This document shows, one piece after another, positions 50-23,571 of a stretch of DNA of 23,571 bases. The DNA lies in IMG/VR virus record IMGVR_UViG_3300030333_003529, positions 1 to 23,571 of that record. One strand, given 5' to 3'. The notes under the pieces were generated by a model that saw only the letters and a program-made list of their open reading frames with translations, was not told the origin of the DNA and made no database searches. Within the stretch, counting starts at the first letter, position 1, and every line of letters starts with the position of its first letter. This DNA is from a virus. Position numbers and translations under genes: made by a program.

Positions 50-1460
50 ATAACGAGAATATCGAATCTTTCAACAAAACCAATTGTGTTTTCATTGTCA
101 AACCAACAGAAGAATGAGTAATACCTGCAATTAAATATCTACCACTAAATTTCTTATCAACAACTTTTGTATCCTGTACCTTCATAGAAGAAGGAATAAT
201 GATATCAATACCTTGCCCTGAATAAAGATCTAAGTTGCCAGGAATTGTTATTTCAAGTTTAGTAGACTTAAGGGACTCCAAACGAAGCCATTGATATGCT
301 TGCAATTCTACTAGATGCTCATAATTTTTTTCTGGGTTTTTCTTATATGTCTTATCGAAAATTTGATTGGGTAACATATTATATCTAACCCTTTTAGGAT
401 AATCAATCATAGACTGAATTTCTTTATCAAACGTCTCAATAGGATTAACAGATCTAGTACTATTAAGATGTGACATCTTACTCCATAATGTCTTAAGACT
501 ATAACGATAAGCATCAACAGACAAATCACTACTCAATCCCATTTTAGAATTACCAAGACTATTAGGATCAAATCCCATACTAAACCCAGACCAAGTTCCA
601 TGTCGCAAACCTGATAACCAATTTCTTTCATCTGGAAAAACTAGATTAGTAATAGCATATTGATCAGCACCAGTATCACCAACACTTTTCGGAGAATACT
701 CATATTCATATATTCTACCTTTTCCTTGATCCCAGTTACTTTCTGTTGGCATATCATTAATATCATCAATCATACCATCAATTGATTTGAAATGATATCC
801 TAGAGAGCTCTCCCAGAAAGCAAATCCATTTTGTAAAGTTCCACCCTTCTTACCTTTACGAATACTACGTTGCATTATCCAGTAGATAGTATCAAGAGGT
901 CTCCAATTAGTAGCAATAAATGTATTTGGATTTAAAGTCTCTTCACCACCAATAGGATGTAAAATCTTTTTAGATGATCCTATATACTTCTTATCTTTTA
1001 TAAGTTTTTGAATAATCTTAGATGCTTCGGTTTCTTTATTAAAAATGGTCTCACTATTACCAAAAACATTAGTTACTTCATTTTTAATAAATTCATCAGA
1101 ACAACAATTAAGTATAAATTGCTCAGTTCCACTTGAATTTCTAGTACGAGCTTCAATACTATGAACTCTAAAATGATATAACCTATCTGCAATACTTGTC
1201 CTAATTTTAAATTGTATTAACTCAGATCCAGTTATAGAACCAAACACACCTGCAGCATCTTCAAATTGAAACCGTGCTTCTAAAGTTGCAGAAGATATAT
1301 TTTCATTTATTGTCCAACCTCTTAAAAAATCAACCAAATTCCATTGACCAGATTCAGTTGTAAGTTTCTGACCGTCTCTATAGAAAGTTATACTAAACTC
1401 ACAATCACCGACTCCTTCTCTATTCAAAGAAGGTTTTGTTGTGGTATTGGTACTACTCAT
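48..1460 (-). CDS. 27: Baseplate hub protein, T4 gp27-like
   Basis: A 470-residue protein, probably the tail hub ring that connects the tail tube to the central spike, as T4 gp27 does. Supporting signs are the position after the tape-measure-like genes and an overall beta-rich, soluble composition without signal peptide. Around residues 185-200 there is an Asn-Trp-Arg-Pro-Leu-Asp-Thr-Ile-Tyr-Trp-Ile stretch of the kind found in gp27-like and related hub proteins. T4 gp27 is 391 residues, so this one is somewhat longer. Its ATG overlaps the stop of the upstream 941-residue gene by four bases (ATGA), implying translational coupling. The family call is from recognition of pattern and synteny rather than an alignment; another hub or baseplate structural protein is the alternative. 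Confidence 0.6.
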   Translation of the reverse strand: MSSTNTTTKPSLNREGVGDCEFSITFYRDGQKLTTESGQWNLVDFLRGWTINENISSATLEARFQFEDAAGVFGSITGSELIQFKIRTSIADRLYHFRVHSIEARTRNSSGTEQFILNCCSDEFIKNEVTNVFGNSETIFNKETEASKIIQKLIKDKKYIGSSKKILHPIGGEETLNPNTFIATNWRPLDTIYWIMQRSIRKGKKGGTLQNGFAFWESSLGYHFKSIDGMIDDINDMPTESNWDQGKGRIYEYEYSPKSVGDTGADQYAITNLVFPDERNWLSGLRHGTWSGFSMGFDPNSLGNSKMGLSSDLSVDAYRYSLKTLWSKMSHLNSTRSVNPIETFDKEIQSMIDYPKRVRYNMLPNQIFDKTYKKNPEKNYEHLVELQAYQWLRLESLKSTKLEITIPGNLDLYSGQGIDIIIPSSMKVQDTKVVDKKFSGRYLIAGITHSSVGLTMKTQLVLLKDSIFSL

Positions 1461-4282
1461 TTAAACAGACCTCTCAAAGGATTATTGAAAGAGTTTAAAA
1501 CTTTAGTAGCAATACCAAAAATTCCATTAGCTTTAGTGCTAGTAAAAGGACCAGCAGAACCTCCGCCTCCACCTCCTCCACCAATATAAGTTGGTTTATC
1601 GGACTGACCTAAAATTGCTGTAGCAGCAGCATTTGCTTGTTCAATCCATCCTTTAGTAGCTTGGTTAGAAGTTTCTATTTGTGCTAATGCTTGCTGTACA
1701 ATTTCTATAGTTCTTCTATTCATTTCTTTTCTTGCAGCATTTCTCTGATCCGTTGCCTTTCTCATAGCAGCAGTATCTTGATTACCTGTAGTAGCATTAC
1801 CTTTTGCGTTAGCATTACCGAAAAGTCTATTTGTGGTATTACCACCACCACTTCTCATTCCTCCACCACCTGTAAGTGCTCTAAAAATATTACCAACTCC
1901 ACCAGACATATTTGCTTTAGAGTCTACAAAACTCCGAACTCCTCCACCACCGCTAGTTCTACGATTACCATCAAGACCCATACTAGGGTTCAATATTCTT
2001 AAATTTTCATTACCAGCACTATTAAAGATATGATTACCATGTTTTGTTGTATTAACCTGTTGAGATTTATCCAAGAATGCACCGCCAGTTCTAAATCCTG
2101 TTGCACCTAATAGTTTATTGACAGTAGCATCATCATATCCTGCTGCTATCAATCTATTTCGTAATGCTTTAGGATTCTTAGCAAGCATAATTGCTCTCAT
2201 AGCATTATCCATTTCACGAGGAGATCTTTCAGCATTAATAGAACCGTCTCTTATTGGTTGATACTGCCCTTTACCCATAATAATATCAGTAATACTACCA
2301 CCTTTAGCATTAAACAAACCTGGTGCAGCACCATCTTGAATAATACCTGCTCTATTCATAACAGATCTTGCCACTAATGCCATACCTAAAACACCTTCTC
2401 CTCTAGCTTCAGCAAGTACCAATCTTTGAAGAAGATCCATTTCAGTTTGAGTTGATCTTCCTTTGCCTCCTTGACCTTTTGCCATAAATGCTCTCATCAT
2501 AGCACGTAACTCATTACCACCACTACCAGGAGCACCACGTTTAGTAGTCTTAAAGAAATCCCAACGTTCTCCAGTACCACCCCATTCTACTGGACCATAA
2601 TTTTCATGACTATTACCACCATCTCTGTTAGATGCAGCTTCAGCACCAGTCATTACATTTTTTACACTAACATCTTCACCTTTCCATCCCCAACTCTTAG
2701 CAATTCTTGCTGCCTCCATCATCATAGCAGTCTTTTGTGCGATTGTAGGAGGATAATCTATCCAAGGTCTACCTCCCATAGCAGAAGCTGCTAAACCTAT
2801 ACTATTTTTATTACGTTTCCAAGTATGAGAACCAGTTTTATTATAATCTACTCCTTGTTTCTTCCTCCCATCTCCACTAAAAACACTATGGAAATGACCT
2901 TTAGGTGAATATCCATAACCCGTACCAGTCCAATGTAGATATATCTTCTTATCTACCATACCACCAATAGCAGCAGATAATCCACCAATATCATAACCCA
3001 TGCTTTTTGCTTCACGGATTCTTGTTTCTGTAAGATTTGGATTTGTTCTAGTTGCCTTAGTATCAAACGGAACAATAAATGCTGAACCGTCACCTTTCCT
3101 TGCTACATATTCCGATCCATGACCGATAAAATCTGTACCTTTCCCATCAAGACTAACTGGATAACCAGACTGAGGACCATGTATCCAACCTCCACCTGCA
3201 AACTCTTTGAGATTATTTAACGATCCTCCCCATGCTTTATATCTGTTAGGATCATTCGGACCTCCTACACCAACTCCAGGATCATCAGGTCCAAGTGTTC
3301 CTGGTGCTCTGTATAAAGTTTGTGGAGTAACCTGATGTCTGTCACCTTTACCTGTAAGAAAATCCCAAATTTGACCAAATGCACCTTTTTCCTTACTATG
3401 TAATTCAGGAATCTTATCATACATTGGATCACCAGGATAATAAAATTTCCCTTCATAAAATCTTCCTGCACCTCTCTCTTCTTCCCTTTGTCTAGCATTA
3501 TCAACTAATAATTTTCCAGTAACTACACCTGCACCTACTGCTAAAAACATCCATCCTAATGGACCTTTAAGAAGAGCAGACATTTTTACAAATGCTGATC
3601 TTATTGCTGTACCGAATAGAGTAACAATAGTCTTAAGTTCTTTTGTTGTTCTAACAATATTAAGAGGATTAAGCCATCTAAATCCTAATGCTAAAGTACC
3701 AAATCCTACTAGAAATTGACCAAATCCTTGCAATCTTTCCCACCAAGTACTCTCATCTGAAAGCATTTTATAGAGACCATTAAATGCATTACTAGTCCCA
3801 AATTCAGCCCATTTCTGAATAATTTTTCCTATTTTTGCTACTACCTCTATACCCCTTTCTATTTTCTTCCTATTCTCAGGATTTGCAAACCATTTTAATA
3901 TTGCTCTTCCAATAGTAAGTTTAAACAAACCAGCAAGCAACTTAAGTAAAGATTCTAAAAATCCAGGAACTTTACCCATAGATAATTTCTTAAAGAAATT
4001 ACCAAATTGAACATTAGGTTTATTATATTTTGCTTTAGGTAATTTTTGACGTGCTGCTTGCTCTGCAGTTAAAGATGCATGAGTAATCTTTTTAATATCA
4101 ACTACAACTTTGGCAAGCGAATTTACCGTTCCACCAAGATTATTAACTGCTTTTACATTAGTTAAAACGGCTTGAGTAAGTTTCGGATTCGAGTCATCTG
4201 GATTTGCAGTAGAAGCAGTTGCCAGAGTTACAGGAACGAACTTATAAAAATTAATTTTTGCACCCTTTTGAATTGTTGCCAT
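1457..4282 (-). CDS. Large tail/hub protein with two peptidoglycan hydrolase-like domains
   Basis: A 941-residue tail protein that probably helps the phage breach the cell wall during injection. Residues 100-205 (hydrophobic, with a Trp-Phe-Ala-Asn-Pro motif and an Glu-Ser-Thr...Glu-Arg motif) match residues 107-205 of the preceding 842-residue protein, so the two are paralogues. Residues 445-580 look like an amidase_2/PGRP-type N-acetylmuramoyl-L-alanine amidase (Tyr-Leu-His450-Trp-Thr-Gly; Asn-Ser-Ile-Gly-Leu; Gly-Glu-Arg-Trp-Asp). Residues 612-755 look like a SleB-type cell wall hydrolase: Glu625 in Ala-Glu-Ala-Arg-Gly-Glu, Asn-Arg, then Gly-Gln-Tyr. The tail is Gly-rich with eight consecutive glycines near 901-908. 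A late-type octamer ACTAAATA lies 25 bases before the ATG. The expected amidase second-zinc His appears replaced by Gly546, so that domain may be binding-only. No T4 protein has this composition; its exact place in the tail is inferred. Confidence 0.65.
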   Translation of the reverse strand: MATIQKGAKINFYKFVPVTLATASTANPDDSNPKLTQAVLTNVKAVNNLGGTVNSLAKVVVDIKKITHASLTAEQAARQKLPKAKYNKPNVQFGNFFKKLSMGKVPGFLESLLKLLAGLFKLTIGRAILKWFANPENRKKIERGIEVVAKIGKIIQKWAEFGTSNAFNGLYKMLSDESTWWERLQGFGQFLVGFGTLALGFRWLNPLNIVRTTKELKTIVTLFGTAIRSAFVKMSALLKGPLGWMFLAVGAGVVTGKLLVDNARQREEERGAGRFYEGKFYYPGDPMYDKIPELHSKEKGAFGQIWDFLTGKGDRHQVTPQTLYRAPGTLGPDDPGVGVGGPNDPNRYKAWGGSLNNLKEFAGGGWIHGPQSGYPVSLDGKGTDFIGHGSEYVARKGDGSAFIVPFDTKATRTNPNLTETRIREAKSMGYDIGGLSAAIGGMVDKKIYLHWTGTGYGYSPKGHFHSVFSGDGRKKQGVDYNKTGSHTWKRNKNSIGLAASAMGGRPWIDYPPTIAQKTAMMMEAARIAKSWGWKGEDVSVKNVMTGAEAASNRDGGNSHENYGPVEWGGTGERWDFFKTTKRGAPGSGGNELRAMMRAFMAKGQGGKGRSTQTEMDLLQRLVLAEARGEGVLGMALVARSVMNRAGIIQDGAAPGLFNAKGGSITDIIMGKGQYQPIRDGSINAERSPREMDNAMRAIMLAKNPKALRNRLIAAGYDDATVNKLLGATGFRTGGAFLDKSQQVNTTKHGNHIFNSAGNENLRILNPSMGLDGNRRTSGGGGVRSFVDSKANMSGGVGNIFRALTGGGGMRSGGGNTTNRLFGNANAKGNATTGNQDTAAMRKATDQRNAARKEMNRRTIEIVQQALAQIETSNQATKGWIEQANAAATAILGQSDKPTYIGGGGGGGGSAGPFTSTKANGIFGIATKVLNSFNNPLRGLFK

Positions 4283-4307: not shown

Positions 4308-4315
4308 TATTTAGT
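4308..4315 (-). promoter_or_regulatory. Late-type promoter octamer ACTAAATA
   Basis: Minus-strand ACTAAATA ends 25 bases upstream of the ATG at 4282 and overlaps the stop codon of the upstream gene. It carries C for A at the second position of the TATAAATA core, as do the octamers before gp26 and gp4. Confidence 0.5.
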
Positions 4316-6843
4316 TACCCACCAGCAATTAATAGTTTTTGTTTGATTGCAGGAGCAAGAGCAACCTCACCCTTAATGACTGGTATAACAAGAGGTAGTA
4401 TCTCTAATTCAGGTTGATCTAATGCAAACTGCTTAGATCTATCAATTAAACTTCTACCTTTATCAATCATACCAAATACTTCTGCACCTATTCCCAATTC
4501 ACCAGCAATAGATCTAATTCCAGTAGCATAATCAGTAGATCCTTGGTACATACCCATTACAGATCTAAACAATCCACCAGCACCCATAGAATCTGCCAAT
4601 CCACCCATAGCAGCCATAGGTGAAAATCCACCTTCAAATAACTGAGAAATTCCTGGTAATTGAGAAACACCTGGTATTTGACCAAGGAAACTACCCAATC
4701 CAGGAATCATATTACCAATTCCAGAAAGACCGTATTTATCTAAGAATCCACCAAACTGTGACATCCTTCCACCTTGACCAAAGAATCCACCCTCACCAAA
4801 TAATGCACCTGGTTTGGTCAGACCAGTCATATTACCAACTGCTGATAGAGCACCACCCCATCCTCCACCTTGAAGTCCTTGGAATACACCGCCAGCAAGT
4901 TGACCGACTTTACTACCCATAAAGTTATTATATGCACCAGTAATACCACTAATAGCACCACTTATACCACTATGCATACTAGCAAGTCCTTGACCAAACT
5001 TACTCATACGTAAGTTCAACATCCAATTTGGTGTATCTACTATTGACTTAGCAGTAGTACCAATAGAAGCAAAGTTACCTAAGGCACTAAAGCCTCCCAT
5101 TGCTGCACCAAGTATATCTCCTTGCCTTAACGAATTAACAGCATTAATTGCTCCAACAATAGGTCCAACACCAGGAATAAATGATAATGCAGTACCTACT
5201 ATCGGATTACTAACTACCTTACCAACAGTATTAACTACACCACTAACTGCCTTCTTAACACCATTAAATACACCACTAACTGCCTTACTAACACCTTTAA
5301 ATATTTTACCAAAGAAAAATTCTGGTAATTTCTTATGTTTTCCACCTTTTGCCCAGAATTTCCACCAAGGTTTCTTTGTTTTGGTTATTGTTGGAACTAC
5401 ATGTTTCTTAGTAACAGGCTTCTGTTCTTTCTTTTTATTACCCCATCCACTAAAAAGATTACCCCAGAAACCAGATTTCTTCTCCTCTTTTTTCTTATGT
5501 ACTACAACTTTCTTAGTAGGAGGTTGTACTATACCTTCTCTATTCTTAACATAATCAATCTTCTTCTGCAGTACCTGCACCTTCATGTCGTTAGGACCGA
5601 CAAAAATATTGCCGTATCCTAAGGTGGCCATATTCACCCATTTATTTAAGGGTGTTTTTGATTGTTCTTTAGCTAAATCTGCTTCTAATTTCTTAAGTAC
5701 GTGTTCTGTACCATGCTCTTGAATTGCTTTTTCAGTATTCCTATCACTTGCTCTATCTCCAGCTCTCTGCATAGGTTGAAAAATAACCTTATCAGCAGCC
5801 CAATTAATACCCCAATCAGCAAGAATACCAATACCAAGATTCGCAGCACCCTTTGCTGTACCCTTTAAAACACTTCCAGTAGTTGCAAGAGGTTTATTCT
5901 TAATCTGATTAATACCCTTCTTACCCCAATTCTTTATCCCTCTCCAAGTTTTTCCCCAAAAATTCCCTTTCTTCATTATATTAGAAGAACCCTGAATACT
6001 AGGTGCTCTAAACTTAGTAGAAGAAAACTTACCCTTATTAAAGGTTGATTTACCCTTTACACCTTTACTCGAACCTTTACTCTTTGTTCTTTGATTAGTT
6101 TTACTAGTTTTACTTTTATTTTTATCACCAAGTTTGGGTTTCGGTTTACCCATATGATTACAAAAATTACCAATCCACATCACTATGGATGACATCATAC
6201 CAAGAGGATCGGTTATCATTTTCAAGACAAGGACACCTTGAGTTAAATCCCAAAGTCCCTCAAACCTTTCCATTAAGGTACTTTCTTTACCTACTAATTT
6301 ACCCCAACCTTCAATTAATTTATCATTAATTAACCATTTGCCAAAATTATATAATTTTGTCCAAATTACATTTGCCTTATGAAGAAAAGTCTCAACTTTT
6401 TCAACATTAGCAGGATCACCCCACCATTTCAACATTTCCCTAACTACAGGAAATGCAATTAGTTTTGCAAAAAATTCAAGAACTGGCATCAGCATATTAA
6501 GCCAACCAGGTAAAAGACTCTTTAAGAGATTTTTATTCTTACCAGTTGGTTTTATATTTGATTTAAATCCTTTCTTACTAAGATTATTAATTTCTGCTTG
6601 TGTTTCAGCAGCTTCATCTGCTTCTCTTTGTAGTCTCCTCCTTTCTGCTTGTTCCGCTAACTTATTATTAGTAACTCTTGCTGCTTCAATACTTTCAAGG
6701 TCTTTAACAACACTACCCATACTAGAGATGGTAGCACCCAACCTATTAATAGCATAAGTAGACTTTCTGACACTAGCAACCTGAGGAGATACATGTGAAA
6801 ATGCTCCTGGTTTAACTACTTTGTAGGCAGAAATTTTAGCCAT
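4315..6843 (-). CDS. Tape-measure-like tail protein
   Basis: An 842-residue protein that is the best candidate for the tail tape measure, which sets tail length and fills the tube. It follows the gp26/gp51 pair as tape measures follow tail chaperone pairs. It has an N-terminal charged helical region (50-100), a hydrophobic domain (107-225), a very Lys-rich stretch (230-330 and 440-510), a hydrophobic Gly/Ala/Val-rich segment (515-600) with repeated Ala-Val-Ser-Gly-Val units, and a long Gly/Met/Phe-rich C-terminal third. Residues 107-205 match the 941-residue protein downstream. The first eight bases overlap the end of the gp51-like frame. T4 gp29, the known tape measure, is about 590 residues and not recognisably similar; a central hub protein remains possible. 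Confidence 0.55.
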   Translation of the reverse strand: MAKISAYKVVKPGAFSHVSPQVASVRKSTYAINRLGATISSMGSVVKDLESIEAARVTNNKLAEQAERRRLQREADEAAETQAEINNLSKKGFKSNIKPTGKNKNLLKSLLPGWLNMLMPVLEFFAKLIAFPVVREMLKWWGDPANVEKVETFLHKANVIWTKLYNFGKWLINDKLIEGWGKLVGKESTLMERFEGLWDLTQGVLVLKMITDPLGMMSSIVMWIGNFCNHMGKPKPKLGDKNKSKTSKTNQRTKSKGSSKGVKGKSTFNKGKFSSTKFRAPSIQGSSNIMKKGNFWGKTWRGIKNWGKKGINQIKNKPLATTGSVLKGTAKGAANLGIGILADWGINWAADKVIFQPMQRAGDRASDRNTEKAIQEHGTEHVLKKLEADLAKEQSKTPLNKWVNMATLGYGNIFVGPNDMKVQVLQKKIDYVKNREGIVQPPTKKVVVHKKKEEKKSGFWGNLFSGWGNKKKEQKPVTKKHVVPTITKTKKPWWKFWAKGGKHKKLPEFFFGKIFKGVSKAVSGVFNGVKKAVSGVVNTVGKVVSNPIVGTALSFIPGVGPIVGAINAVNSLRQGDILGAAMGGFSALGNFASIGTTAKSIVDTPNWMLNLRMSKFGQGLASMHSGISGAISGITGAYNNFMGSKVGQLAGGVFQGLQGGGWGGALSAVGNMTGLTKPGALFGEGGFFGQGGRMSQFGGFLDKYGLSGIGNMIPGLGSFLGQIPGVSQLPGISQLFEGGFSPMAAMGGLADSMGAGGLFRSVMGMYQGSTDYATGIRSIAGELGIGAEVFGMIDKGRSLIDRSKQFALDQPELEILPLVIPVIKGEVALAPAIKQKLLIAGG

Positions 6844-7030
6844 TCTGTGCTTGTTGTTCCTTTGCTTTACGCTCTTCTTCCTTTAGGAATGAGACTAATA
6901 AATTCATATAAATCTCCTTTTCAAAAGGCATTAAATTATCGACATATTCAGGATTCCACTTATGGTGATGCATTAATGCAAAGTTACCCTCATAATATGA
7001 CTTTAAATTAGTATGAAGAAGAGCTACTCG
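6836..7030 (-). CDS. 51: gp51-like tail/hub assembly domain, probably made by -1 frameshift from gp26
   Basis: This frame is too short to stand out but is clearly protein-like: 64 codons from the frameshift point to a TAA, ending eight bases inside the tape-measure-like gene. Key features are a His-His-His-Lys-Trp cluster, Leu-Met-Pro-Phe-Glu-Lys-Glu-Ile-Tyr and a charged Lys/Glu/Gln-rich tail, as in gp51-type hub assembly catalysts and the T domain of tail assembly chaperones. The only ATG (6973) would give 45 residues, has no well-spaced Shine-Dalgarno, and would omit about 19 upstream codons that also look coding (for example Asn-Leu-Lys-Ser-Tyr-Tyr). No in-frame ATG lies above that before a TAG. 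The frame is -1 relative to gp26 and joins it exactly at a T TTT TTC heptamer, so a 300-residue gp26-gp51 fusion is the likely main product. T4 makes gp51 as a separate protein. Confidence 0.65.
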   Translation of the reverse strand, partial: RVALLHTNLKSYYEGNFALMHHHKWNPEYVDNLMPFEKEIYMNLLVSFLKEEERKAKEQQAQNG

Positions 7031-7737
7031 AAAAAACTAGCTAGTCCCTCAAGTACTATTTCATTATCCTTTTTAGTCTTAGGATTAACTACGTTAATTG
7101 TATGAGACAACTTAGGCATAGTTTCAAAGAATTCTTGAATTTGTAAGAATTGCTTACTACTTAATTGTTCAAAAAATTCCATAATCTCTTCCTTAGGAAG
7201 ATCAGTACAATCATGCACTTCTTCACCATCAGTAATTGTTTTTACACAACTAGCTGCCATTTTGAAAATTTGATCAACACCAGGTTGTTCGTCACCAACA
7301 AAATTCATACTAACAAACGTATCTAAACTCGGATAAGCCATAGTTAAGATACACTCAGGTGATAACTTAATATCTGGTTTATGTCCTTTAGTCTTAATAA
7401 CTTTTATTTCATTAAGAGGAATATTTACTGGAACTTCAGTTATTCCATCATCAGGACATGTAACAGAAATCTCAACACTTTCACCAACAGATTTTCCACG
7501 AATTTGAAGGAAAACATATTCAATATCAAAAGTTGCAAGACTGTCCAAATCTTTAATATCTGTACAATCGGTGATAATGGTTTTAATAGCAGACATAAGA
7601 TCTGCCTGTTCACCAGTTTCCGTTGCTAAAAGTAGTAATTTCTCTTCTTTTACAAGAAAAGGTCTATAATTCACGGTTCTGCCATCAGAAGGCAGTTTCA
7701 GTTTGTACTTAGGTACATTTAATTTAGGTAATGCCAT
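7024..7737 (-). CDS. 26: Baseplate hub subunit, T4 gp26-like
   Basis: A 237-residue protein of the T4 gp26 baseplate family (T4 gp26 is 208 residues), needed for hub or tail assembly in the host cytoplasm. The N-terminus (Leu-Pro-Lys-Leu-Asn...Tyr-Lys-Leu-Lys-Leu-Pro-Ser) followed by Tyr-Arg-Pro-Phe-Leu-Val-Lys-Glu-Glu-Lys-Leu-Leu-Leu, and the Ile-Arg-Gly-Lys-Ser-Val-Gly-Glu segment, are family hallmarks. The gene has its own late-type octamer (CCTAAATA, 7760-7767) 23 bases upstream. Its last codons, Ala-Ser-Phe-Phe-Glu-stop, contain a -1 slippery heptamer, so two products are expected: gp26 alone and a gp26-gp51 fusion. By analogy with lambda G/GT these may chaperone the tape measure encoded next. 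Confidence 0.85.
   Translation of the reverse strand: MALPKLNVPKYKLKLPSDGRTVNYRPFLVKEEKLLLLATETGEQADLMSAIKTIITDCTDIKDLDSLATFDIEYVFLQIRGKSVGESVEISVTCPDDGITEVPVNIPLNEIKVIKTKGHKPDIKLSPECILTMAYPSLDTFVSMNFVGDEQPGVDQIFKMAASCVKTITDGEEVHDCTDLPKEEIMEFFEQLSSKQFLQIQEFFETMPKLSHTINVVNPKTKKDNEIVLEGLASFFE
7030..7036 (-). promoter_or_regulatory. Programmed -1 frameshift site (T TTT TTC)
   Basis: On the minus strand the gp26 codons read AGT TTT TTC GAG TAG; the heptamer T TTT TTC is exactly in the X XXY YYZ register. Slipping one base back continues as TTT TTT CGA GTA GCT into the gp51-like frame. A Shine-Dalgarno-like GAGGGA (7045-7050) lies 9 bases upstream, the placement known to stimulate bacterial -1 frameshifting at dnaX. 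No strong downstream hairpin is visible, only a three-pair GAG/CTC. Confidence 0.65.
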
Positions 7738-12710: not shown

Positions 12711-13628
12711 TCAGTCCTCCTCTGCTAAAGATGCAAAGTATGATAACGTATCTTCTTCTGAATTTGCAGGAGAAGCAGCGACTGCTTTCTCTCTGAACTC
12801 AGAAACTTCCTTACCCCAATTCTGTGGAGTAACTTCTTCCTCACTCTCATCAACAACTCTTGGTGCTGGACGTGATGAAGACTTACCTAGAACAAGATCT
12901 AAACGCTTCTTCAAATCCTCATAGGACTTAAAGTTTTTAGAATCTTCAAACTCAGCAAGTGAATAAGATTGCTTCCAGATATTCTCCAAAGTAGCATCAT
13001 CATAACCACCTAGAGTACCAGGTGCTGCGAACTCTGACTTATCATAGTTCCAATATCCGTCTACCTTTCTAATCTTAACTTTAAAATCTGCACCTTGCCA
13101 TAGATTGAAAGGATCTAATGGTGTCTCGTCTTTAAAAGCAGGTTGCATAGCTTCGACTAGTTTGTCAAAGATTTTCTTACCATACTTGTAAAGGAATACC
13201 TTACCTTCATTCTCTGGATGTGCTGGATCTTGCACAACATATATGTTAGAGTAATAAGAAAGCTTACGCTTCTGTACTCTAGCAGTTGCTTTATCCTGCT
13301 CACGACCACTATTCCATAGTTCTCTGTTCAATTCTCCAACGGGATCGTCCTTACCAATAGTAGTAAGAGAGTTCTCGATGTACCATTGACCGCCAGGTCC
13401 TTTGAAAGAGTGTGACCAGATCTTTGCCCAAGGCATTTCTTCTTGATCTGGGGCAGGAAGGAATCGAATAACTGCGTATCCATTTCCTGTCTTATCTAAC
13501 TCAGGTTTCCAGAGACGCTCATCAGCACCTCCTCCAGTCTGAGGTTGATTTATTTTCTCGATCTCTTGCGTGAGTTTGGCGAAGGTGTTACCTGCTTTAG
13601 CAGCCTTCTTTAATGTTGCAAAAGACAT
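12711..13628 (-). CDS. 32: Single-stranded DNA-binding protein, T4 gp32-like
   Basis: A 305-residue homologue of T4 gp32 (301 residues), which coats ssDNA and organises phage replication and recombination. The basic N-terminal arm (Leu-Lys-Lys-Ala-Ala-Lys), the core motifs Gly-Gln-Trp-Tyr-Ile-Glu-Asn, Tyr-Tyr-Ser-Asn-Ile-Tyr-Val-Val-Gln-Asp-Pro, Glu-Asn-Glu-Gly-Lys-Val-Phe and Phe-Gly-Lys-Lys-Ile-type Tyr-Gly-Lys-Lys-Ile-Phe-Asp-Lys, and an acidic C-terminal tail used for partner binding are all present. There is no cysteine anywhere, so the Cys ligands of the T4 zinc site are lost. It has its own TATAAATA promoter, a leader hairpin and a GGAG ribosome site 9 bases before the ATG; T4 gp32 autoregulates through its leader, and the hairpin here could serve the same purpose. 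Confidence 0.93.
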   Translation of the reverse strand: MSFATLKKAAKAGNTFAKLTQEIEKINQPQTGGGADERLWKPELDKTGNGYAVIRFLPAPDQEEMPWAKIWSHSFKGPGGQWYIENSLTTIGKDDPVGELNRELWNSGREQDKATARVQKRKLSYYSNIYVVQDPAHPENEGKVFLYKYGKKIFDKLVEAMQPAFKDETPLDPFNLWQGADFKVKIRKVDGYWNYDKSEFAAPGTLGGYDDATLENIWKQSYSLAEFEDSKNFKSYEDLKKRLDLVLGKSSSRPAPRVVDESEEEVTPQNWGKEVSEFREKAVAASPANSEEDTLSYFASLAEED

Positions 13629-14968: not shown

Positions 14969-14997
14969 ATCATAACAAAGACCTACACATATGTCAA
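14969..14997 (-). promoter_or_regulatory. Near-consensus sigma-70 promoter
   Basis: Minus-strand TTGACA (14992-14997), a 17-base spacer and TATGAT (14969-14974), placing a start about 17 bases before the exonuclease ATG. The -35 covers the phoH stop codon. Confidence 0.75.
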
Positions 14998-15782
14998 GAC
15001 ATACCTGCAGGAGTTGTACCGAAATGTGTATACTTAGCGATAAGATATTCTTTAACAAGACCAGACCTAACGATATCATCTAAACCAAATTCTATACAAG
15101 TAAACTGTTTCATGCCCTGTAGAATGGAAATGAAATCAGAAATACCAGAGGTTTCTTTTTCACGTGTAAGATCTGTCTGTGTAATATCACCACAGAACAT
15201 AAGTTTAGAGTCCTCACCTATGCGAGTGATCATAGAATCTAACTCATGGAAATTTAAATTACTAAATTCATCTACTATAATGATAGCATTATCAAGAGTA
15301 ACACCCCTGATAAAAGAAGTAGACCAAAAATCTATTGTGTCTTGTGCTCGTAGATTATCGTACAGCATTTCAAATGAATTATCATCTGGCATACTGAACA
15401 TATACCTTACCATATTTTTGTAAGGGACTTGATAAAGATAGGACTTATCTTCATGATCGCCAGGAAGAAACCCAATTTCACGAGTAGGAACAAGACTCCT
15501 AACAATATAAATTTTTTCGTAGGGAGTAGTTTCATCCAATACTTCCTGTAATGCTAGGTAAAGCATAATAAAAGTCTTACCTGTACCAGCAGCACCATGC
15601 AAGAGCAAGTTCTTACCTGCCTTATACTCATCAAAAGCAATCTTTTGATTATCAGTAAGAGGCTTGATCTCAGTCATGTATGACTTATCAATAGGCTTCT
15701 TTCTCTTCATCATTTTTTTAGACATGGGTTGGAGAGGTGTTCCGTTCCCATTACCGTTAGTTTTCTTTCTCGCTCTTGGCAT
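14994..15782 (-). CDS. phoH: PhoH-like ATPase
   Basis: A 262-residue PhoH-family P-loop ATPase, a phosphate-stress related gene present in most marine T4-like phages; its role in infection is unresolved, with RNA metabolism often suggested. A low-complexity basic N-terminus (residues 1-33, Lys/Arg/Gly/Asn) precedes the PhoH core. Walker A is Gly-Ala-Ala-Gly-Thr-Gly-Lys-Thr at 63-70; Walker B is Ile-Ile-Val-Asp-Glu-Phe-Ser-Asn near 170; Gly-Asp-Ile-Thr-Gln-Thr-Asp follows, as in all PhoH proteins. It overlaps the FmdB-like gene by one base and closes the long leftward operon from glutaredoxin. Confidence 0.92.
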   Translation of the reverse strand: MPRARKKTNGNGNGTPLQPMSKKMMKRKKPIDKSYMTEIKPLTDNQKIAFDEYKAGKNLLLHGAAGTGKTFIMLYLALQEVLDETTPYEKIYIVRSLVPTREIGFLPGDHEDKSYLYQVPYKNMVRYMFSMPDDNSFEMLYDNLRAQDTIDFWSTSFIRGVTLDNAIIIVDEFSNLNFHELDSMITRIGEDSKLMFCGDITQTDLTREKETSGISDFISILQGMKQFTCIEFGLDDIVRSGLVKEYLIAKYTHFGTTPAGMS

Positions 15783-16024: not shown

Positions 16025-16672
16025 CTATTGGGTGTGTACATATCCAAGTGCCTCGGATATAATTGGGAATTGTTCTTTAAAAATATCTTTACATCCTTCT
16101 GCAATATCCATGTGCTCTTTCTGAGTTCCATGTCCACTACGTAAATCTATATAGTGAATCCAAGAACGAATACTACCTGTCATGTATAATTTGGTCGGTG
16201 TAGCAAGAGGTAGTACAAATCTAGCACACTCTTTTGCAATACCTGCATCCAACATCTCTTTATATAATTTCATTCCATTAACAAAATGTCTTTGCATTTT
16301 AATCTCAAAGTCTTGTTGTGTTAATGGATCTATATCATCAATACTATTTTGTCTGTTCTTTGTATCTTGTCTACGTAGTGCTGGTAGTGGTATCTCTTTA
16401 GCTAACAAACTACTATCAGCATACCGTTGAGAGAACTCTTGGTATGTAAATGATCTGTGTCTCAGTATCTGAGCAGCAAGACCTCTAGTAGTTGATATTT
16501 CTACAGTCATATGTGCTTGCTCAAAGACACTCCAGTGTCCGTGTTCAATACAATACTTAAGTAGACCTGCTACCTTAGGATTTTCTTGGTTCTTAGGGTT
16601 AGAGACACGTGCTACATAACCAATAGTTTTCTCTGCATCAGGAGTTACAGAGATCAAAGATACATTATTCAT
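16025..16672 (-). CDS. thyX: Flavin-dependent thymidylate synthase ThyX
   Basis: A 215-residue FAD-dependent thymidylate synthase (methylenetetrahydrofolate + dUMP to dTMP), supplying dTTP for phage DNA synthesis. The signature Arg-His-Arg-x7-Ser occurs at 71-81, followed by Gln-Arg-Tyr; His45-Trp-Ser-Val-Phe-Glu-Gln-Ala and Arg-Ser-Trp-Ile-His-Tyr-Ile-Asp-Leu-Arg near residue 175 are also family motifs. The length is normal for ThyX. It overlaps the upstream membrane protein gene by 8 bases. ThyX is widespread in marine cyanophages. Confidence 0.95.
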   Translation of the reverse strand: MNNVSLISVTPDAEKTIGYVARVSNPKNQENPKVAGLLKYCIEHGHWSVFEQAHMTVEISTTRGLAAQILRHRSFTYQEFSQRYADSSLLAKEIPLPALRRQDTKNRQNSIDDIDPLTQQDFEIKMQRHFVNGMKLYKEMLDAGIAKECARFVLPLATPTKLYMTGSIRSWIHYIDLRSGHGTQKEHMDIAEGCKDIFKEQFPIISEALGYVHTQ

Positions 16673-23067: not shown

Positions 23068-23571
23068 TTAGCCTATTGCAGGAGCAACGAGTGCAACCTC
23101 ACTAGTCTCAGCAGCAGCAAGATCAAGTGGGAAGTTGTGTGCATTTCTTTCATGCATAACTTCCATACCTAAGTTCGCTCTGTTAAGAACGTCACCCCAA
23201 GTAGGAACAACTTTACCGTTGCTGTCTACGACAGACTGGTTGAAGTTGAAACCGTTAAGGTTGAATGCCATCGTGCATATACCCATAGAGGTAAGCCAGA
23301 TACAAACAACTGGGAAGACAGCAAGGAAGAAGTGAAGACTTCGACTGTTGTTAAACGATGCATACTGGAAGATTAATCTACCAAAGTATCCATGAGCAGC
23401 AACGATGTTGTAGGTCTCTTCTTCTTGACCAAATTTATAACCATAGTTTTGTGATTCGTTGTCAGTTGTCTCTCTGATTAGAGAAGATGTAACAAGAGAA
23501 CCGTGCATGGCAGAGAATAATGCTCCACCGAACATACCTGCTACACCTGCCATATGGAATGGGTGCATAAC
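23068..23571 (-). CDS. psbA: Photosystem II D1 protein, C-terminal part
   Basis: The last 167 or so codons of psbA, continuing beyond the window edge. D1 is the photosystem II reaction-centre subunit that is damaged by light; phage copies keep host photosynthesis running during infection. The sequence has His-Pro-Phe-His-Met-Ala-Gly-Val, the Glu-Thr-Thr-Asp-Asn-Glu-Ser D-E loop end, [10 protein letters not shown], and the C-terminal [20 protein letters not shown], with the manganese-cluster ligands. About 13-14 residues follow the expected CtpA cleavage after Asp-Leu-Ala. The frame is intact in this part, and a strong terminator follows. Confidence 0.97.

Follow-up and report, generated by a model that had tools for sequence, protein, structure and literature searches.

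The window analyzed here, a 23,571-nucleotide (nt) stretch that spans positions 1 to 23,571 of the virus record IMGVR_UViG_3300030333_003529, contains on its minus strand a gene (gp26; 7024..7737) whose 237-amino-acid (aa) product matches the Pfam family T4_baseplate (PF12322, E 6.9e-73) and the PHROG family phrog_150 (E 2.3e-84). The terminal codons of gp26 read GAG GGA CTA GCT AGT TTT TTC GAG TAG and, as an initial annotation of the window had noted, contain the heptamer T TTT TTC in exact register for slippage into the -1 frame (7030..7036, read from 7036 to 7030), such that TTT and TTC are zero-frame codons of gp26 and the zero-frame stop codon TAG (7024..7026) lies one codon past the heptamer. 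A GAGGGA resembling a Shine-Dalgarno (SD) sequence, and thus a possible stimulator, is also present (7045..7050, read from 7050 to 7045); it had been placed 9 bases upstream but lies 8 nt 5' of the first T of the heptamer, a distance that becomes 9 nt when GAGGG is counted as the core. From 7030 to 6839 the -1 frame runs for 64 codons, the length previously given. The encoded segment, which we refer to as the C domain, begins RVALLHTNLKSYYEGNFALMHHHKW, matches phrog_634 (E 6.2e-27) and ends at a TAA codon (6836-6838) that overlaps the start (ATG, 6843) of the next gene on the same strand, which specifies an 842-aa protein (4315..6843) matching phrog_790. The first ATG in the -1 frame is codon 20 of the C domain (6971..6973), an unlikely start; it had been described as the only one, but there are more ATGs at codons 34 and 42. 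Together, the two frames would specify a predicted 300-aa frameshift product, gp26-C (6836..7737). On the basis of the sequence comparisons described below, we consider it very probable that ribosomes undergo a programmed -1 frameshift at T TTT TTC and so produce a pair of tail assembly chaperones (TACs), with the 237-aa gp26 as the short, TAC-N-like form and the 300-aa gp26-C as the long, TAC-NC-like form.

We compared the junction in the window and 80 IMG/VR relatives, in 70 close distinct relatives, and, once distant relatives were added, in 154 distinct junctions. The C domain lies in the -1 frame in all 154 of these, isolate genomes included, and T TTT TT(C/T/G) is found in register at the end of gp26 in 149 of them (T TTT TTC in 138, T TTT TTT in nine and T TTT TTG in two; the other five are non-canonical). 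The window and all 80 IMG/VR relatives have the same heptamer sequence, followed by a domain in the -1 frame, and in every heptamer-bearing relative the distance from heptamer to stop is 0 or 1 codon. The comparison across T4-like cyanophages that the initial annotation had proposed therefore reveals both a conserved heptamer and a conserved frame. The layout extends to Kyanoviridae, Straboviridae (Schizotequatrovirus, Angelvirus and Nanhuvirus), Pootjesviridae, and Menderavirus and Chakrabartyvirus phages.

Conservation at the slip site extends to synonymous positions. In particular, the Phe-Phe at the junction is encoded by TTT TTC in 70 of 70 close relatives, as compared with 1 of 129 Phe-Phe pairs elsewhere in gp26, and the junction TTT and TTC are the sole invariant codons among 95 conserved positions with degenerate codons. 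The relatives are not independent of one another, so the Phe-Phe pairs elsewhere in the same genes serve as an internal control. The likely genes of the window total 7,526 codons, among which T TTT TTC is found in register just once, at the end of gp26; this single occurrence, together with the conservation in relatives, indicates that the slip site is beyond chance. Within the SD-like GAGGGA, 82% of close relatives encode the Glu by GAG, a codon found at frequencies of 15-46% at six other positions of conserved Glu. This bias supports the idea that an SD-like element is selected for, and the site is calculated to form a duplex of -6.1 kcal/mol with an assumed anti-SD sequence.

The family to which gp26 and the C domain belong points to the function of the pair. 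In two-sequence searches against a profile of the fusion, T4 gp26 matches the zero-frame part (E 7.6e-27), and its C-terminus, ...GLKEFFELL, stops at the junction; T4 gp51 (249 aa) matches positions 23-286 (E 2.5e-16), with N and C parts in one chain. T4 gp51 also covers positions 13-280 of 282 of phrog_150 and matches phrog_634 as well, and proteins of this type occur in 1,339 records, with most of the query covered in 1,334. T4 gp26 and gp51 look like paralogues because they match one another in a pairwise BLASTP comparison (E 1.7e-6). By these alignments T4 gp51 is a full-length (N+C) paralogue and not the C domain alone, so that the term "gp51-like", which had been applied to the segment in the window, holds as the cyanophage annotation but not with respect to T4 gp51. 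Since T4 gp26 ends at the junction and gp51 spans both parts, T4 encodes the short and long forms as two genes.

We modeled gp26 and the C domain as separate chains. The best fold match in the PDB for the AlphaFold model of gp26 (predicted local distance difference test score (pLDDT) 87) is the HK97 tail assembly chaperone 2ob9_A (Z 7.5, root-mean-square deviation 4.4, 83 residues, gp26 residues 1-84; VIA-align), followed by 3fgx_A (Z 7.4); this match provides modest support because its Z lies within the range of unrelated best matches. Profile searches of gp26 and the C domain against the PDB gave chance-level hits only, and a fold search with the C domain gave nothing useful. The initial suggestion that the two products are a chaperone pair thus draws support from the fact that T4 gp51 is homologous to the fusion in its entirety and T4 gp26 to its first part, and from the modest HK97 fold match. 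The TAC identity of T4 gp26 and gp51 rests on Vladimirov et al. 2022, as represented by its title and by papers that cite it. Separately, T4 gp26 weakly matches the gp28 family (phrog_1140, E 9e-4), and in the public record of Acinetobacter phage Stupor gp28 too is named a tape measure chaperone; the gp28 family is perhaps a third paralogue.

The principal alternative treats the C domain as a small protein in its own right, annotated gp51, whose translation would begin either at an internal start codon or by reinitiation once ribosomes have terminated at the gp26 stop. Public records do annotate it in this way, in most cases with an internal ATG or a TAATG-type sequence as the start, and in the window Met20 has a GAGGG approximately 13 nt upstream, which is the poor ribosome-site spacing previously remarked upon. 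However, there is no start codon in the -1 frame of the window ahead of codon 20, and the Met at that position is replaced by Ile in 14 of 55 distinct relatives. Upstream of the slip site, no ATG, GTG or TTG was found in the -1 frame in the 70 close relatives, and in a wider set such a start codon occurs in 3 of 148 relatives and is absent from 145; 74 have no start codon in the first 12 -1-frame codons. At the conserved N-terminus, neither the window nor its close relatives have a start codon in frame together with a ribosome site. Moreover, the 19 codons that precede Met20 evolve as protein in the -1 frame, under purifying selection: their ratio of nonsynonymous to synonymous polymorphism (pN/pS) is 0.24 in that frame versus 1.07 and 2.10 in the other two, and the C domain after the first Met codon has a pN/pS of 0.18. 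Initiation at the internal ATG would, as had been argued, drop these coding codons. It would also cut the first long predicted helix, because Met20 lies inside helix 9-22 of the AlphaFold2 model of the C domain (pLDDT 88; helices 9-22, 27-33 and 35-63). Furthermore, T4 gp51 carries the N and C parts in one chain, and separate initiation leaves the heptamer unexplained. We regard a separately initiated C domain as improbable.

Several observations weigh against a programmed frameshift or its proposed role. First, 55 of the 148 relatives have an ATG no more than 12 codons from the slip site, many at codon 4 as in S-PM2, and in those relatives there is room for a separately started, free C domain; T TTT TT(C/T/G) is nevertheless retained even beside a near ATG. 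Second, the SD-like element is often absent in distant relatives. Third, we found no conserved stem-loop or pseudoknot downstream of the heptamer: RNAalifold predicted 8 weak pairs with an energy of -1.7, the downstream folding z averaged -0.8 over 58 sequences (-0.3 for the window), and no Rfam family matched above threshold. Fourth, Ackermann-type relatives lack a canonical heptamer. Fifth, the HK97 fold match has a Z below 8 and a Foldseek E of 1.0.

Two groups of relatives depart from the common pattern. Unlike most relatives, the phages pf16 and S-PM2 have strong hairpins in the 65 nt past the heptamer (z -5.5 and -4.9, respectively), which are possibly lineage-specific stimulators. The five non-canonical junctions are those of EP75, of VP-1 and a near-identical contig (L202), of Cygsa01, and of IMGVR_UViG_3300011253_000081. 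In EP75, VP-1, L202 and Cygsa01 the slip position reads ATT TTC or GTT TTT and the C domain is still in the -1 frame. In IMGVR_UViG_3300011253_000081 the gp26 frame is interrupted ahead of the junction, which probably reflects a sequence error or a broken contig. Vibrio phage D495 has CTT TTC, and its C domain is too divergent for scoring. The Ackermann-type relatives mostly have a TAATG start at the gp26 stop, and they may use either a weaker slip site or termination-reinitiation.

Less probable still is slippage of RNA polymerase on the T6 run, which would yield mRNAs in which gp26 and the C domain are continuous in the zero frame. The run is indeed a homopolymer of six T, and reaches at least seven in a few relatives, but six T is short for polymerase slippage. 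In most relatives, moreover, the run stays at six T followed by C, without lengthening, the canonical X XXY YYZ register is kept, and the favored GAG of the SD-like element fits ribosomal stimulation. That gp26-C is one gene broken by an indel or sequencing error, as might be entertained for a single environmental contig, is refuted by the occurrence of the two-frame layout in all 154 distinct junctions, including those of isolate genomes.

In most long-tailed phages the tail assembly chaperone comes in two forms, of which the longer is made by frameshifting. For the window, which represents a marine T4-like phage, we favor such a programmed -1 frameshift, which is supported by the heptamer, the frame, the synonymous constraint, the lack of a start codon and the coding tests; we infer the occurrence and efficiency of the shift, the role of the SD-like element and the role in assembly, as follows. 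Most ribosomes would terminate at the TAG one codon past the heptamer, yielding the 237-aa gp26 as the major product. A minority, with tRNA-Phe in both the P and A sites, would re-pair from TTT TTC to TTT TTT, possibly aided by the upstream SD-like GAGGG, and would translate 64 further codons to yield the 300-aa gp26-C as the minor product. Homology to T4 gp26 and gp51, together with analogy to lambda G/GT, suggests a division of labor in which the short form holds the tape measure protein and recruitment of the tail tube or hub falls to the C domain.

The comparison with T4 reveals one family organized in two ways. T4 gp26 corresponds to the zero-frame product, with the same endpoint, and T4 gp51 to the whole fusion; in T4, however, these are two separate genes on opposite strands, whereas the phage of the window has one gene plus a -1 frame. 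Indeed, the end of T4 gp26 (GAG TTC TTT GAG TTA CTA TAA) has no slippery heptamer. The slippery heptamers and C domains of lambda G/GT and P2 E/E' are unlike those of the window phage, and the family link to these systems was assessed by the modest HK97 chaperone fold match. In the Vandenendeviridae and Andersonviridae (PMC12846349), as in the window, a poly-T slip site stands at the end of the short-form gene and a -1 extension is usually annotated separately; it lies upstream of the tape measure gene, for which the window has a candidate. These are different families, and their motif is GTTTTT rather than T TTT TTC.

Systems of this kind are already known, and one has probably been reported before in T4-like phages. 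According to passages in two later papers (PMC10885494 and PMC12846349), Vladimirov, Gautam and Davidson (2022, Virology 566:9-15) identified the chaperone genes of T4-like phages; a passage in the first of these, the PRFect paper, describes some T4-like phages as carrying one short gene along with a longer, fused one, and one in the second, the Adele paper, cites the Vladimirov study as a source on poly-T signals for -1 frameshifting in the chaperone genes of T4-like phages. The public record of phage Stupor gives the name "tape measure protein assembly chaperone" to gp26 and gp51 alike. Atkins et al. 2016 (PMC5009743) described the G-T frameshift as widely conserved "except T4". The initial annotation had held that the junction would connect T4 hub assembly to the lambda scheme; the link is supported but is not new, given the earlier Virology paper and Stupor record. 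Thus the long-puzzling T4 hub assembly proteins gp26 and gp51 fall into a lambda-type chaperone scheme, as others said first. What our analysis adds are quantified codon-level, start-codon and coding tests, together with a survey across families.

For cyanophages, our search of the literature on programmed ribosomal frameshifting turned up no report of this site. Sullivan et al. 2010 (PMC3037559) reported cyanophage gp51 to be approximately 20% of normal length and to lack the first ~200 residues. This is the same C domain, treated there as a reduced separate protein, whereas here the missing part would be supplied by gp26 through the predicted frameshift, such that the "truncated gp51" can be understood as one half of a product expected from frameshifting. 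At least 80% of the fusion is covered at one place in 504 annotated phage records, in two pieces among the matches listed, and the records inspected either list the C domain as a gene separate from gp26 or leave it out. Correction would accordingly be called for in the annotations of hundreds of cyanophage genomes, and a clear prediction follows for the proteomes of infected cells.

With more reserve than for the frameshift itself, we lean toward the view that frameshifting at T TTT TTY is ancestral in the T4 superfamily, that cyanophages and three genera of Straboviridae not belonging to the T4 group have retained it, and that T4 and its nearest relatives lost it through gene duplication, with gp26 as the short form and gp51 as a hard-wired long form. 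If so, the duplication freed the short:long ratio in T4 from frameshift efficiency. Vladimirov et al. 2022 may have described this order of events before.

The description of the 842-aa gene downstream of the C domain as tape-measure-like is upheld by position only: neither its product nor the 941-aa protein encoded next to it (1457-4282, minus strand) has similarity to T4 gp29. HTVC008M has, at the equivalent position, a gene that carries the annotation "putative tail tape measure". The 842-aa and 941-aa proteins have their N-terminal ~200 residues in common (29% identity, E 8e-12), and the latter contains a cell wall hydrolase-like domain that falls just under the Pfam cut-off. Elsewhere in the window, also on the minus strand, are gp32 (12711-13628), phoH (14994-15782), thyX (16025-16672) and, at the contig end, a psbA fragment (23068-23571), a set that is typical of marine cyanophage.
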